Below, piece by piece: positions 175 through 12,255 of a stretch of 33,699 bases of DNA. Below the pieces are notes generated by a model. It saw nothing but the letters and a program-made list of their open reading frames with translations. It ran no database searches and was not told where the DNA came from. The position numbers and the translations under genes were made by a program. Origin of the DNA: an uncultured Chloroflexota bacterium (GTDB taxonomy: Bacteria; Chloroflexota; Chloroflexia; Chloroflexales; Chloroflexaceae); NCBI GenBank assembly GCA_937120965.1, contig CAKZKA010000069.1, positions 1 through 33,699 of the forward strand, written 5' to 3'. Position 1 is the stretch's first letter. Each line of letters opens with the position of its first letter.

Positions 175-250
175 TGGAGCCTACGACGGGACTCGAACCC
201 GTGACCTCGTCTTTACCAAAGACGTGCTCTACCGGCTGAGCTACGTAGGC
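175..250 (-). tRNA. tRNA-Thr (anticodon GGT), CCA encoded
   Basis: On the minus strand the acceptor arms GCCTACG (244-250) and CGTAGGC (179-185) pair fully. The anticodon loop TTGGTAA gives anticodon GGT, reading ACC/ACU threonine codons. The T-arm is GGGTTCGAGTCCC. The CCA tail is encoded (175-177). It is the third tRNA of the cluster, closest to tuf. Confidence 0.97.
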
Positions 251-329
251 GCATGGCGAAGTGATCATCACAGGGGCCGGAGACGTGGACACACCGCTCC
301 GGTTTCTACCCTGTACGCTCACTTCGTTC

Positions 330-415
330 TGGTGGGCCGGGCAGGATTCGAACCTGCGAAGGCGTTAGCCAGCGATTTTACAGACCGCCCCGTTTGGCCA
401 CTTCGGTACCGACCC
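330..415 (-). tRNA. tRNA-Tyr (anticodon GTA), class II, CCA encoded
   Basis: The acceptor arms GGGTCGG (409-415) and CCGGCCC (334-340) pair with one G-U. The anticodon loop CTGTAAA gives GTA. A long variable arm (class II) is present between anticodon and T arms, as expected for bacterial tyrosine tRNA. The CCA is encoded at 330-332. Its 5' end lies only 8 bases from the 3' end of the upstream tRNA-Thr(TGT). Confidence 0.97.
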
Positions 416-423
416 AGAGCACC

Positions 424-499
424 TGGAGCCGACGCAGGGACTTGAACCCTGAACCGACGGTTTACAAAACCGTTGCTCTGCCAATTGAGCTACGCCGGC
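424..499 (-). tRNA. tRNA-Thr (anticodon TGT), CCA encoded
   Basis: The acceptor arms GCCGGCG (493-499) and CGTCGGC (428-434) pair with a single G-U. The anticodon loop TTTGTAA gives TGT, reading ACA/ACG. The D-arm AGCTCAATTGGCAGAGC and T-arm are intact and the CCA is encoded (424-426). It is the promoter-proximal gene of the tRNA-tuf unit. Confidence 0.97.
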
Positions 500-7406: not shown

Positions 7407-8528
7407 TCACCGCGCGAAGATGGCGTTCAGGGCCAGGCCAAGCAGGATCACATAGATGGCGAACCAGCTTACCACCTTAATTGTGCTCCACCGCCCGATC
7501 AGCTTATTGAGCATGGCCCACTCGGGGATGGATGAGACGGTCGTGGCCATCATCGCCGCCACCAGCGTGCCAATCGGCACGATATCGACCAGGGCCACCA
7601 GGATCGGCGCGGTCGAGGCTGCATTGATATCCAGCAGCAGGCCAATACCTGCGGCCACCAGCGGCCCCCACCAGGCCGCCCCGGCCTGCTGCAGGCTCGC
7701 CACAAGCGTCAGGTTGAAGTTGATCAGGAGACCGGCCAGCGCCCCGCTGAGCAACACCACACCGAACAGGCGCTTGAAGAGGCGCCAGGCTTCACGATGG
7801 GCGCGCACGAGCAACGATTCAGGCTGCGCCTGGCGCGCGGGCTGCAATGGGATCACGTCACCCACGAAACGTTCGGGCGTAAGCCCCAGCAGCGGGGCTG
7901 CGTAGGCAGTGATCAAGGCGGCAACGACTCCGGCCAGCAGGTAGATGCTCCCACCAGATGGGCCGGCGATTACGAACATAAAGATGATCGCGAACTCGTT
8001 CAGAGCCGGACTGGCGAAGAGAAACGCCGCCGATGAGCGCTGGCTGGCCCCCCCCGCCACGATGCCCGCATAGAGGTTGACCACCGTGCATGAGCAGACC
8101 GGGGTGAGCATGCCCAGCAGTGCGCCGCCCCCGGCGCCGATGAGGTCGTTCCGCCCAAGAGTGCGCTCGATCCATTTCGTGCCTACCCGCAGGCGCAGCA
8201 GGGTCATTCCGAACGTCGTCAGGAAGAGAATAATTGGCAGCTTGAACCACTCGTAGATAATGTAGGCCGCCGTTTTCTGCACGTCGATCGGCCCAACGGG
8301 TGTGGGGACGCTCCAGGCGGGGATCCAGGCCGTGAGCGCAGCGCCGAGCGCCTTGCCGGCGTTGGCGATGGGCGCTTCGAAGACCGGGATCATATTTTTC
8401 AGCTCTGCGCCGGAGAGCCAGGCGCTCAAGCTCTGGAACAGCGCCTGGCCGACGATCAGGGCGAGCATGACGAGCGCGGCGATCGGCACGAGCCGTTCGT
8501 AGTCGCCTGTCAGTAGCTTACGGAGCAT
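7407..8528 (-). CDS. Predicted permease, COG0701/UPF0718 (YraQ/ArsP-like)
   Basis: 373-residue polytopic membrane protein with about eight to ten hydrophobic segments. The family signature is GMLTPVCSCTVVNLYAGIVAGGASQRSSAAFLFASPALNEFA, containing the CSC motif and the SPALNE half-motif. A second related half follows (GLLLDINAASTAPILVALVDIVPIGTLVAAMMATTVSSIPE). COG0701 members include ArsP organoarsenical efflux proteins and permeases found beside COG0523 GTPases in zinc-repressed operons. Here it lies downstream of a COG0523 GTPase and a zinc-ribbon gene on the same strand, with 81 bp to the preceding gene. Metal transport is therefore the favoured guess; arsenic is the alternative, but no ars genes are present. 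Confidence 0.85.
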   Translation of the reverse strand: MLRKLLTGDYERLVPIAALVMLALIVGQALFQSLSAWLSGAELKNMIPVFEAPIANAGKALGAALTAWIPAWSVPTPVGPIDVQKTAAYIIYEWFKLPIILFLTTFGMTLLRLRVGTKWIERTLGRNDLIGAGGGALLGMLTPVCSCTVVNLYAGIVAGGASQRSSAAFLFASPALNEFAIIFMFVIAGPSGGSIYLLAGVVAALITAYAAPLLGLTPERFVGDVIPLQPARQAQPESLLVRAHREAWRLFKRLFGVVLLSGALAGLLINFNLTLVASLQQAGAAWWGPLVAAGIGLLLDINAASTAPILVALVDIVPIGTLVAAMMATTVSSIPEWAMLNKLIGRWSTIKVVSWFAIYVILLGLALNAIFAR

Positions 8529-8609: not shown

Positions 8610-9092
8610 CTAAGATTCGACCCAGAGAGAGCGAGCGCGCGGGCCGCGGTCGCTGGCCTCCACCAGCAGACGTACCCGGTCGCCTTCGCGGATGCCCGCG
8701 TCGCGGAAGAGGCTGTGGTGCACGTAGACATCAAAGCCCTCGGGCTCGACCCGGGCGAAGAGGAAGCGCCCGGCGGGGTCGATGCGCAGCACCCGCGCCG
8801 ACACCGGGTCACTCGGCATCGGACCGGCGTATGGCTTGCGTGGGACGCGACGGGGTACAGTGGACTCGTCGCTGTCAGCGACGGTGGGGGCTACAACGCC
8901 CGCTCCGCTCACATCGTACTGACACGGGCCGGGCGGGAGTGGGACGCCGTGCTTGCGGGCGCGGCGCTGGGCAGGGCAGCGGGTTGGCTCGTTGATGAAG
9001 CCTTTGCTCGCGTAAAACGCCTGCTCTCCCGCAGTGAACACAAAGCGACCTCCGCACTCCCGGCAGGCGATCTCTTTATCGGTGTAGTTCAT
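8610..9092 (-). CDS. Zinc-ribbon plus OB-fold/cold-shock-like protein
   Basis: 160 residues. Residues 1-40 resemble the short zinc-ribbon domain found in many cold-shock-like proteins (IACRECGGRFVFTAGEQAFYASKGF ... PTRCPAQRRARK). The first CxxC is intact (CREC). The second is CPAQ where the family normally has CPxC, so one ligand is missing. The C-terminal ~70 residues (VSARVLRIDPAGRFLFARVEPEGFDVYVHHSLFRDAGIREGDRVRLLVE) look like a cold-shock/OB nucleic-acid-binding fold. The start at 9092 is chosen over an in-frame ATG at 9116 because GGAGGCGCC precedes it. It lies between a COG0523 GTPase and a COG0701 permease, possibly in one operon. Confidence 0.8.
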   Translation of the reverse strand: MNYTDKEIACRECGGRFVFTAGEQAFYASKGFINEPTRCPAQRRARKHGVPLPPGPCQYDVSGAGVVAPTVADSDESTVPRRVPRKPYAGPMPSDPVSARVLRIDPAGRFLFARVEPEGFDVYVHHSLFRDAGIREGDRVRLLVEASDRGPRARSLWVES

Positions 9093-9219
9093 TGGCGCCT
9101 CCGGCGCTCCAGGCACTGGTCAGGCTACAGCGGTCAGGGTTCAGGGTTCAGGCCGAGCGCATTAGAGCGCACTGCGTGACCCCGAACGGTCACACGGTCA
9201 CTCACCGATAAGCCCGGGC

Positions 9220-10473
9220 TTAGTGATGGTGACCGATGTGGTCATCGTCGTCCTCGTCGTCGGGCATAAGCACCCAGTCCCCGAAGGGGTCATCAAATGC
9301 GGCCCAGCCCGCCGGCCCGAGTGCCAGCTCGGCGTCGGTGAGCAGGCAGGCGTCGAGGCGCGCCCGCAGGTCGGCCTCGTCCATATCTTGCCCGATCAGC
9401 ACGATCTCCTGACGCCGATCGCCCCAGTCGGGGTGCCAGAGGCTCGCCAGCAGGGCCTCCTCCGCCGGGTCGTCGGGCACTGCATCTTCAGGCATGGCCG
9501 CCCACCAGCGCCCGCCTGGCTCAACCCGACAGGCCCTGCCAGCCTGCGACCAGACGCCGTTCAGTTCCATACGTGTGGCCAGCCAGAACAGGCCCTTCGA
9601 ACGCAGCACGCCGGGCCACTCCTCGTTAATCAGCTCCCAGAAGCGCTGCGGGTGAAAGGGCCGCCGCGCCCGGTAGACGAAGCTATGAATGCCGTACTCT
9701 TCGGTCTCGGGCACATGCTCGCCGCGCAGCTCCTTCAGCCAGCCGGGTGATTGGGCCGCTCGCTCGAAGTCGAAGCGTCCGGTATTGAGGATCGCGGCGA
9801 GGGGTACCTGGCCGAAACTGGCGCGGATGATCCAGGCCTCAGGGTTAAGCTTGCGCAGCAGCGCCTCCAGGCGCTCAAGCTCCTCCGCCTCCACCAGGTC
9901 GGCCTTGTTGATCACCAGCACATCGGCGAACTCCACCTGGTCGACGAGCAGGTCAACCACCGTGCGCTCGTCCTCGTCGCCAGCGGCCAGGTCGCGATCG
10001 CGCAGCTCGTCGGGCGAGAAGAAATCCTGAGGAAAGTTATAGGCATCGACGACCGTGACCATTGTATCGAGGCGCGCAACATCGCCCAGAACCGGTCCAT
10101 CGGAGGTAGCGAAGGTAAAGGTCTCGGCCACGGGCAGCGGCTCAGAGATACCGGTCGACTCGATCAGTAGGTAGTCGAAGCGGCCCTCGCGCGCCAGGCG
10201 GCTGACCTCAACGAGCAGGTCCTCTCTAAGCGTACAGCAGATGCAGCCATTGGTCATCTCGACCAGGCGCTCCTCGGTGCGGCTGAGAGCCGCCCCGCCA
10301 CTGCGCACCAGATGGGCGTCGATATTGATCTCGCTCATGTCATTGACGATGACGGCCACGCGCAGGCCCTCACGGTTGGACAGCACGTGGTTGAGCAGGG
10401 TGGTCTTACCCGCTCCCAGGAAGCCTGAGAGCACCGTCACGGGGAGCCGGCGGGTTGAGGTCATGGTTTGCAT
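9220..10473 (-). CDS. COG0523 (CobW/ZigA-like) metal-chaperone GTPase 1
   Basis: 417 residues. G1 P-loop GFLGAGKTT (17-25), the family's metal-binding CICC motif in [11 protein letters not shown] (77-80), [12 protein letters not shown] (189-192), and a CobW C-terminal domain (residues about 255-395). The tail is Asp/Glu-rich and ends DHIGHHH, a probable metal-binding end. It is long for the family, as in the ZigA/YciC zinc-starvation subgroup. Such GTPases insert or deliver zinc under limitation. The promoter 10551-10579 is overlapped by a Fur-family-type box, consistent with repression by Zur in zinc sufficiency. A 14-bp palindrome TAAGCCCGGGCTTA covers the stop codon. Confidence 0.92.
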
Positions 10474-10550
10474 CTTAGATGAGACGTGCTATCAATGCTT
10501 CAGGACAAAAAAGAAACAGATCTGGAATAACGCCACAGCGAACGATATTA

Positions 10551-10579
10551 ATGATAGATTATATCAATAATGTTGTCAA
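10551..10579 (-). promoter_or_regulatory. Promoter of COG0523 GTPase 1
   Basis: On the minus strand TTGACA (10574-10579), a 17-bp spacer and TATCAT (10551-10556): an almost ideal sigma70 promoter. The leader to the gene at 10473 is about 70 nt. Confidence 0.8.
10552..10566. promoter_or_regulatory. Fur/Zur-type operator, box 1
   Basis: TGATAGA-T-TATATCA is a 7-1-7 palindrome with 6 of 7 arm pairs matching. It sits inside a 23-bp near-palindrome (10548-10570, arms TTAATGATA and TATCAATAA). It overlaps the -10 hexamer and spacer of GTPase 1, the expected position for a repressor. The layout and TGATA...TATCA pattern resemble Zur boxes. Which Fur-family protein binds is inference. Confidence 0.65.
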
Positions 10580-10713
10580 GAGCAGTACGAGAGCGCCCTC
10601 GGGGCTGCGCCTCCGGAAACCCTGCACCTGAGAGACCCTCCCCCTTTTTCCGCGGCGACAGTGGCGGCGCGCCTGTGCGCCGCACATCCGCCACACAGGT
10701 TACTACGACCAGA

Positions 10714-10728
10714 TGAGAGCATCTCTCA
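10714..10728. promoter_or_regulatory. Fur/Zur-type operator, box 2
   Basis: TGAGAGC-A-TCTCTCA is a second 7-1-7 palindrome (6 of 7 pairs) just upstream of the -35 hexamer of the plus-strand promoter. Its right half recurs exactly in box 3, 39 bp downstream. Confidence 0.5.
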
Positions 10729-10731
10729 GTA

Positions 10732-10759
10732 TTGACAATATCTCGATATGAATGATACC
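10732..10759 (+). promoter_or_regulatory. Promoter of the FmdB-like / GTPase 2 pair
   Basis: TTGACA (10732-10737), a 16-bp spacer and GATACC (10754-10759). The -35 is perfect and the -10 is weak, which fits a regulated promoter. It lies between box 2 and box 3. Confidence 0.5.
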
Positions 10760-10767
10760 ATCTCTCA
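10753..10767. promoter_or_regulatory. Fur/Zur-type operator, box 3 (degenerate)
   Basis: TGATACC-A-TCTCTCA combines a left half like box 1 and a right half identical to box 2. It covers the -10 of the plus promoter. The 28-bp stretch from 10744 to 10771 matches 10543-10570 (box 1 region) at about 22 positions, so the two operators probably share an origin. The rest of the gap 10474-10807 holds only a GC-rich hairpin near 10662-10695. Confidence 0.5.
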
Positions 10768-10807
10768 ATAAATAATCGGTACGTTGTATCAACTGGAGGC
10801 GCGCACG

Positions 10808-11047: not shown

Positions 11048-11178
11048 CACAGTGACCGGGCGCGGGGCTGGCCCACTGGCTCGACGCCTGTGTCTACCGG
11101 ACGATTGGCGAGCGGCTGCGCGAAACGTTTGAGCTGCTGCACATCGCCTGAACGCCCGTTTCAGTGGAGGAGATCACC

Positions 11179-12255
11179 ATGTCTGCTGAGGCTCCTGTGA
11201 CGCCCGTCCCGCTCACTATCCTGACCGGCTTTCTTGGCGCGGGAAAGACCACGCTGCTTAACCGCATCCTGCACGCTGACCACGGTCTGAAAGTGGCAGT
11301 GATGATCAACGACTTCGGCAGCATCAACATTGACACCCAGTTGGTCGTCGGCGTCGAAGGTGAAGCCGTCTCGCTAGCCAATGGCTGTATCTGCTGCACC
11401 ATCCGCGGCGATCTGCTCAATTCGGCGCTCCAGCTCCTGGCCCGGCCTGAGCCGCCTGAGTACCTGATTATAGAGACGAGCGGGGTGAGTGACCCCTGGG
11501 CAGTGGTGGACACCTTCGAGCTGCCCGAGCTGCGCCCCTACTTCCGCCTCGACGCGGTGATTACCGTCGTCGACGCCGAGTATGTGCGTCAGCAGCGGCA
11601 CTACGAGGATCTGATCGTCGACCAGGTGAGCGCGGCCGACATCGTCGTGTTGAGCAAGGTTGACCTGGTGGACGAGAAGCAGCGAGCCGAGGTGGAGGAG
11701 TGGGTGCGCCGGATCGTGCCGCGAGCGCGCATCCTGCCGGCGGTTCATGGCCAGGCGCCAATCAATCTGCTGCTCGGCGTCGGGCGGTACAGGATCGAGC
11801 TTGCGCCACTATCCGTGCCGGGCCACGCTCAGCACGGGCGCGAGCATCACGACCATCACGAGCACGGGCCGGACTGCGATCACGCTCATACCCATGACCA
11901 CGGTGCAGCCTTCAGCAGTTGGAGCTACACCAGCGCGCAGCCGTTCGGGCTGAAGGCCCTGCGCGAGGTGGTGCTGAACCTGCCGGTGGCGATCTTCCGC
12001 GCCAAGGGCCTGATCTATCTGGCCGACGTGCCCCATCGCCGCGCGATCCTCCAGGCCGTCGGCCCGCGGGTCAATGTTACCCTGGGCGAACCCTGGGGCG
12101 ACGAGCCGCCTCAGACCCGGCTGGTCTTCCTGAGCACGCCGGGCGGCCTCAACGAGGCTGAACTCCAGGCAGCCTTCGACCGCTGTCGCACCGAGTTGTC
12201 GCTGGAGCAGACCGTTGCGGTCCGGCAAACCTGGATGCGGGGGGAAAGCGCGTGA
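11179..12255 (+). CDS. COG0523 metal-chaperone GTPase 2 with His-rich loop
   Basis: 358 residues. P-loop GFLGAGKTT (17-25), CICC motif (70-73), ETSGVSDP, and a G4 motif reading SKVD (159-162) instead of the usual NKxD. A His/Asp-rich stretch at about 216-241 (GHAQHGREHHDHHEHGPDC, then DHAHTHDH) separates the GTPase from the CobW C-terminal domain, as in zinc- or nickel-handling members (UreG/HypB-like loops). It is shorter than GTPase 1 and lacks the acidic tail, so the two are paralogues from different subgroups. The ATG at 11179 has TGGAGGAGA upstream. Probably co-transcribed with the FmdB-like gene, 131 bp away. Confidence 0.92.
   Translation: MSAEAPVTPVPLTILTGFLGAGKTTLLNRILHADHGLKVAVMINDFGSINIDTQLVVGVEGEAVSLANGCICCTIRGDLLNSALQLLARPEPPEYLIIETSGVSDPWAVVDTFELPELRPYFRLDAVITVVDAEYVRQQRHYEDLIVDQVSAADIVVLSKVDLVDEKQRAEVEEWVRRIVPRARILPAVHGQAPINLLLGVGRYRIELAPLSVPGHAQHGREHHDHHEHGPDCDHAHTHDHGAAFSSWSYTSAQPFGLKALREVVLNLPVAIFRAKGLIYLADVPHRRAILQAVGPRVNVTLGEPWGDEPPQTRLVFLSTPGGLNEAELQAAFDRCRTELSLEQTVAVRQTWMRGESA

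Follow-up and report, generated by a model that had tools for sequence, protein, structure and literature searches.

Two divergent gene sets flank a short intergenic region in the window, by which we mean the whole 33,699-nucleotide (33.7-kb) stretch analysed here (Table 1). Family models agree with the gene identities proposed in the initial annotation, i.e., two COG0523 GTPases, an FmdB-like ribbon, a zinc-ribbon/OB protein, and a COG0701 permease, with the OB match being weak. The best named relatives of ZigA come from Chloroflexales/Chloroflexota bins. The FmdB-family protein scores 38.9 bits against a curated cut-off of 31.3 bits, and its N-terminal ribbon has the CxxC...CxxC arrangement (CPEC...CPVC). 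Full-length zf_Tbcl/OB proteins, found in the window (8610-9116) and in L278, L279, L283, L285, and L287, are mostly linked to zigA or to the box described below and have lost the fourth Cys (CPAQ/CPAR/CPAG); short copies keep CPxC (L126:1611-1778 in this genome, L175, L177, and L178). A later conserved Cys-x-[HY]-D in the full-length proteins may replace the lost residue, and this form may or may not be a zinc-sparing paralogue.

Table 1. Genes, promoters, and predicted Zur boxes of the divergent region, with the tRNA genes of the window.
Feature	Position	Strand	Evidence or remark
Three tRNA genes (Thr-GGT, Tyr-GTA, Thr-TGT)	175-499	-	
ArsP_1/COG0701 permease (arsP)	7407-8528	-	PF03773 7.8e-21
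Treble-clef (zf_Tbcl) protein	8610-9116	-	zf_Tbcl and weak cold-shock/OB match
ZigA, COG0523 zinc metallochaperone GTPase	9220-10473	-	NCBIfam NF038288, 659.4 bits (cut-off 600)
Predicted box 4, TGAGACGTGCTATCA	10480-10494		zigA leader, just upstream of start codon; 16.3 bits
zigA promoter, TTGACA-17-TATCAT	10551-10579	-	promoter scan, 11/12 matches
Predicted box 1, TGATAGATTATATCA	10552-10566		over -10 of zigA promoter; 25.8 bits, best in window
Predicted box 2, TGAGAGCATCTCTCA	10714-10728		just 5' of fmdB promoter -35; 17.5 bits
fmdB-cobW2 promoter, TTGACA-18-TACCAT	10732-10761	+	promoter scan, 10/12 matches
Predicted box 3, TGATACCATCTCTCA	10753-10767		over fmdB promoter -10; 20.2 bits
Probable degenerate fifth box, CGGTACGTTGTATCA	10777-10791		downstream of rightward -10; 12.8 bits with 21-bp motif
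FmdB-family zinc ribbon protein, 79 aa	10808-11047	+	PF09723 4.7e-9, TIGR02605 6.5e-10, both above cut-off
Second COG0523 GTPase, CobW-type (cobW2)	11164-12255	+	PF02492 5.8e-53

The region had been taken to begin at 10474, which is consistent with the zigA start codon lying immediately before it (10473). The three 15-bp boxes first described there are present with their sequences and coordinates as written, but the set was incomplete, as it missed the box in the zigA leader, which has no mismatch against TGAKASNNNSTMTCA, and the weak box at 10777-10791 is likely a further member, with a score expected by chance 0.67 times per Mb under the 21-bp motif. The promoter scan found two promoters versus 0.3 expected in shuffled sequence, and, as had been proposed, two boxes overlap the -10 elements of divergent TTGACA promoters, one box (10552 and 10753) on each. 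The boxes at 10714, 10753, and 10777 form an array with spacings of 39 + 24 bp. The same spacings are found upstream of cobW2 in L224 and in the vicinity of zur in L137; an array spaced 38 + 23 bp is found near zur in L148-L150. This recurrence in relatives hints that the spacing matters.

A motif learned independently from other genomes recovers the same boxes. Palindromic motif discovery in the 350 bp upstream of zur, zigA, and cobW2 orthologues, with the window's own genome excluded, returned the same palindrome from each set separately (TGATAGantCTATCA for zur; TGATAcAaTgTATCA for zigA and cobW2), with a log-likelihood of 272 compared to 30 with shuffled zigA sequences. At 16 bits, the motif from the zur upstream regions only (TGATAgantcTATCA) matches the 33.7-kb window at exactly 10480, 10552, 10714, and 10753 and has no match across 124 kb of control DNA, mostly cas6 orthologue loci (L253-L271); the zur-derived motif also places boxes upstream of 27 of the 29 zigA orthologues. 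Motif discovery upstream of L28 genes alone gave no Zur box, because the L28 paralogue (L28b) lies inside the zigA operon in many relatives. The 5.18-Mb genome itself was searched for boxes by patterns rather than by a full motif scan. The pattern TGANA-N5-TNTCA occurs 19 times in it, compared to 9 times for the reversed control, and four occurrences fall within 288 bp here (Poisson P about 5e-14, given the 288-bp stretch and a uniform rate). A few 15-mers in coding sequence score equally high (C45, C158, C160, and C259), which counts against the Zur reading; these and further near-match sites (C266, C98, and C244) were rejected as lying within coding sequence.

The other strong intergenic boxes in this genome adjoin zinc genes. 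Further copies, which the initial annotation had suggested seeking at places such as znuABC or ribosomal-protein paralogues, turned up at two loci: two boxes (C96:3152 and 3227) upstream of the cysteine-poor L28b, in which a single Cys is found, compared to CxxC...CxxC in the housekeeping L28, and one box on C306, located 313 nt 5' of an AztD-like gene. Although full-length, the latter protein scores 58.8 bits against the AztD NCBIfam model, under the cut-off of 400, and it matches PDB 6cmk at 4.7e-9; by sequence it is a relative of AztD and not a filed member. The box on C306 first seemed to lie upstream of cas6-cas1-cas2, and Zur control of CRISPR was rejected, as the opposite-strand AztD-like gene fits better and the control DNA without a match consists mostly of cas6 loci. 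The cas6-cas1-cas2 genes, with a short CRISPR array (L115:10769-13532), are divergent from the AztD-like gene across the box. Directly 3' of L28b lies a gene for an FAD/NAD(P)-binding protein (L114:1603-2775), which also occurs in the zigA clusters of L279, L283, L284, and L290 and is a candidate zinc-starvation enzyme. Many intergenic regions (L112, L115, L117-L126, and others) are filled with GC-rich repeats of a dispersed type (GGGAAACCCGGTTTCCC and similar), which give rise to long spurious open reading frames.

The genome encodes two Fur-family proteins, and one of them is Zur-like. This protein (L001, contig C49; PF01475, 2.1e-20) is encoded divergently from a gene for a ZnuA/AztC-type zinc-binding protein (PF01297, 1.9e-91; 308 bits against the AztC model, under the cut-off of 350), so that the search for zur proposed earlier does find a candidate, beside a zinc uptake gene. 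Its nearest solved relatives are Mycobacterium tuberculosis FurB (2O03) and the metal uptake regulator/Zur of Streptomyces coelicolor (3MWM). In an alignment of 30 orthologues, the CxxC pairs are conserved, and every sequence has the Cys of CHRY (30/30). This Cys does not belong to the structural CxxC pairs, the first Cys of which follows 15 residues later, and is the candidate zinc-sensing residue; C88 in Escherichia coli Zur has the same spacing. No curated equivalog cut-off, for Zur or Fur, is reached by L001; thus, its typing as a Zur rests on context and residues. Two box-like sites 38 bp apart (C49:8643 and 8681; 14.4 and 12.2 bits) lie between zur and znuA, and they are the weakest in this genome, which counts against the Zur reading. 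The second protein (L002, contig C70) is a full FUR-domain protein beside an ABC transporter with a periplasmic binding protein, which we read as iron-type.

Conservation across the order supports a shared operator. Among the 82 genomes searched, the box is conserved upstream of orthologous zigA, fmdB-cobW2 (in several genera), and zur. The usual boxes of zigA orthologues lie at about -9 to -22 (most) and about -44 to -104, and by the same measure, those of the window lie at about -21 and -93. Across the order, the zigA, treble-clef/OB, L28b, fmdB-cobW2-znuA, zur, and COG0701 permease genes show linkage, either among themselves or with the box. In relatives, zigA, zfTbcl, L28b, and the FAD protein gene form one boxed same-strand cluster, with the zf_Tbcl protein linked to zigA in L278, L279, and L283, and zur is divergent from a boxed fmdB-cobW2-(Fur paralogue)-znuA set, with cobW2 sharing an operon with fmdB and znuA in L277, L283, and L291. 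In L285 and L287, the permease orthologue lies beside zur and has a box to itself, and the divergent zigA/fmdB-cobW2 layout with boxes on both sides also occurs in another family (L286 and L230). Zinc uptake genes, COG0523 genes, and ribosomal paralogues have the box in common, as in a Zur regulon. At zur of Roseiflexus-like and more distant genomes, it is weak or absent, which counts against this reading. A further Fur-family paralogue lies within the boxed cobW2-znuA operon of same-genus genomes (L277:4807-5187, L280:2457-2849, and L283:14522-14917). On the genomic side, the initial annotation would have given way if the genome lacked a Zur and the boxes were unconserved at orthologues, and neither part holds.

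Chloroflexus-like loci (L272-L276) keep the two-box zigA arrangement without an orthologue of the window genome's Zur, which counts against the Zur reading. The only or principal Fur-family protein there carries the candidate sensing Cys 10 residues before the CxxC, as in FurB, and not 15, the spacing in the Zur of most genera near the window. Two single-contig Chloroflexus-like genomes (G007 and G009) have one Fur-family protein each; in L273 and L274, the gene adjoins an rpsR-like (S18) gene. With an even chance of being right, we suggest that the same operator is read within one order by two differently built zinc sensors, with operators that were retained and a sensor that was replaced or remodelled. 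This two-sensor pattern is the less expected part of the result.

We propose, with high confidence, that the region serves as a divergent operator-promoter unit within a Zur regulon, in which zinc-bound L001 would repress both operons until zinc is low. Four, probably five, predicted Zur boxes between two zinc-handling gene sets make it very probable that these genes switch on at zinc shortage. When zinc is sufficient, zinc-loaded dimers of the C49 protein would sit on boxes covering and flanking both -10 elements and block transcription of the putative operons zigA-zfTbcl-arsP (leftward) and fmdB-cobW2 (rightward). As zinc falls, Zur would be released and both operons made, and the metallochaperone GTPases, zinc-ribbon proteins, and COG0701 permease would redistribute or transport zinc. 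Elsewhere in the genome, the cysteine-poor L28 paralogue and the AztD-like chaperone would be under the control of this box, as would probably zur and znuA. The zinc/Zur reading first offered for this region is supported in every computational test run, and the suggestion that its boxes may define the Zur motif of the lineage holds computationally.

Other readings of the boxes explain less of these data. Chance palindromes by AT-rich promoters, with no regulator behind them, would fit the single matches with one mismatch, which are not commoner genome-wide than in the control (46 vs 42), so that the case rests on clustering, score, and conservation and not on any one box. However, four boxes are clustered here, all four score 16-26 bits with the motif from other genomes, a level reached nowhere in 3 Mb of simulated sequence (0 expected), and sequence and placement are conserved across many genera; such an origin is already contradicted and virtually inconceivable. 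It is also very unlikely that the boxes are read by L002 as an iron, manganese, or peroxide regulator, with the genes answering to another metal or to oxidative stress. Boxes of the 7-1-7 type are generic for the Fur family, L002 has a full FUR domain, and same-genus relatives carry a different Fur paralogue inside the cobW2-znuA operon. Yet no box lies in the L002 neighbourhood (L113; best score 5.7 bits), where an iron-type Fur regulon should show one at the iron transport genes and the other fur, although the motif can be learned from zur upstream regions alone, and the targets are zinc-specific (ZigA, ZnuA/AztC, AztD-like, and cysteine-poor L28).

Zur could also bind but act as an activator or dual regulator of the rightward or permease genes, with the five-box array giving graded output, which we regard as improbable. 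The box at 10714-10728 lies upstream of the -35 and off the core promoter, COG0701 includes exporters, and the best NCBIfam match of the permease, below cut-off, is a Cu/Zn efflux model. Such roles have been described at exporter genes, with S. coelicolor zitB activated by Zur and zinc export in Pseudomonas aeruginosa under a dual role of Zur (PMC11077047, PMC9827704). However, each -10 element lies under another box, as is usual for repression, and the permease gene lies 3' of zigA on the same strand, so in such an operon the permease would rise in zinc starvation.

The proposed Zur repression has close counterparts in other bacteria. Zur regulons are well known to include COG0523 genes, ribosomal paralogues, and znuABC (PMC2770081, PMC6103462), and several Zur boxes per promoter occur at Bacillus subtilis yciC and S. 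coelicolor znuA (PMC6103462). Like the region studied here, yciC, a COG0523 gene, has more than one Zur box, one of them on the -10 (PMC6103462); in contrast, the unit in the window is divergent, has four to five boxes, one of them in the zigA leader, and also includes fmdB, the treble-clef protein, and the permease. ZigA belongs to the same NCBIfam equivalog as Acinetobacter ZigA, whose gene is upregulated in A. baumannii when zinc is scarce (PMC11834433), but occurs in another phylum and neighbourhood, with zf_Tbcl and COG0701 alongside. Paracoccus denitrificans likewise has a 15-bp palindromic Zur motif, with zur/znu, azt, and COG0523 genes in its zinc-limitation response (PMC5387054). The region upstream of its aztD has no Zur consensus and was used there as a negative control (PMC5387054), whereas here the AztD-like gene has a strong upstream box and stands apart from the transporter. 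Actinobacterial Zur regulons also include a cysteine-poor L28 paralogue with Zur boxes, S. coelicolor rpmB2 being listed (PMC6103462); unlike in actinobacteria, L28b is followed by the FAD/NAD(P)-binding protein gene and, in relatives, frequently forms part of the zigA operon.

RegPrecise 3.0, with curated computational regulons for five Chloroflexi genomes and Zur in more than 25 groups (PMC3840689), was the only source found in our literature search for Zur and Chloroflexi, which returned no experimental Zur paper for the order; its Chloroflexi collection may already hold this motif. The zinc switch is a well-known type of control, mapped here across an order in which it has received little study. 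The outcome is a Zur box for the whole lineage, cross-validated by computation, together with a list of zinc-response genes for the order. Genes whose role was uncertain beforehand, i.e., those for the FmdB-like ribbon, the zf_Tbcl/OB protein, the COG0701 permease, the L28-linked FAD protein, and the AztD relative, are tied to zinc in a way that is directly testable.
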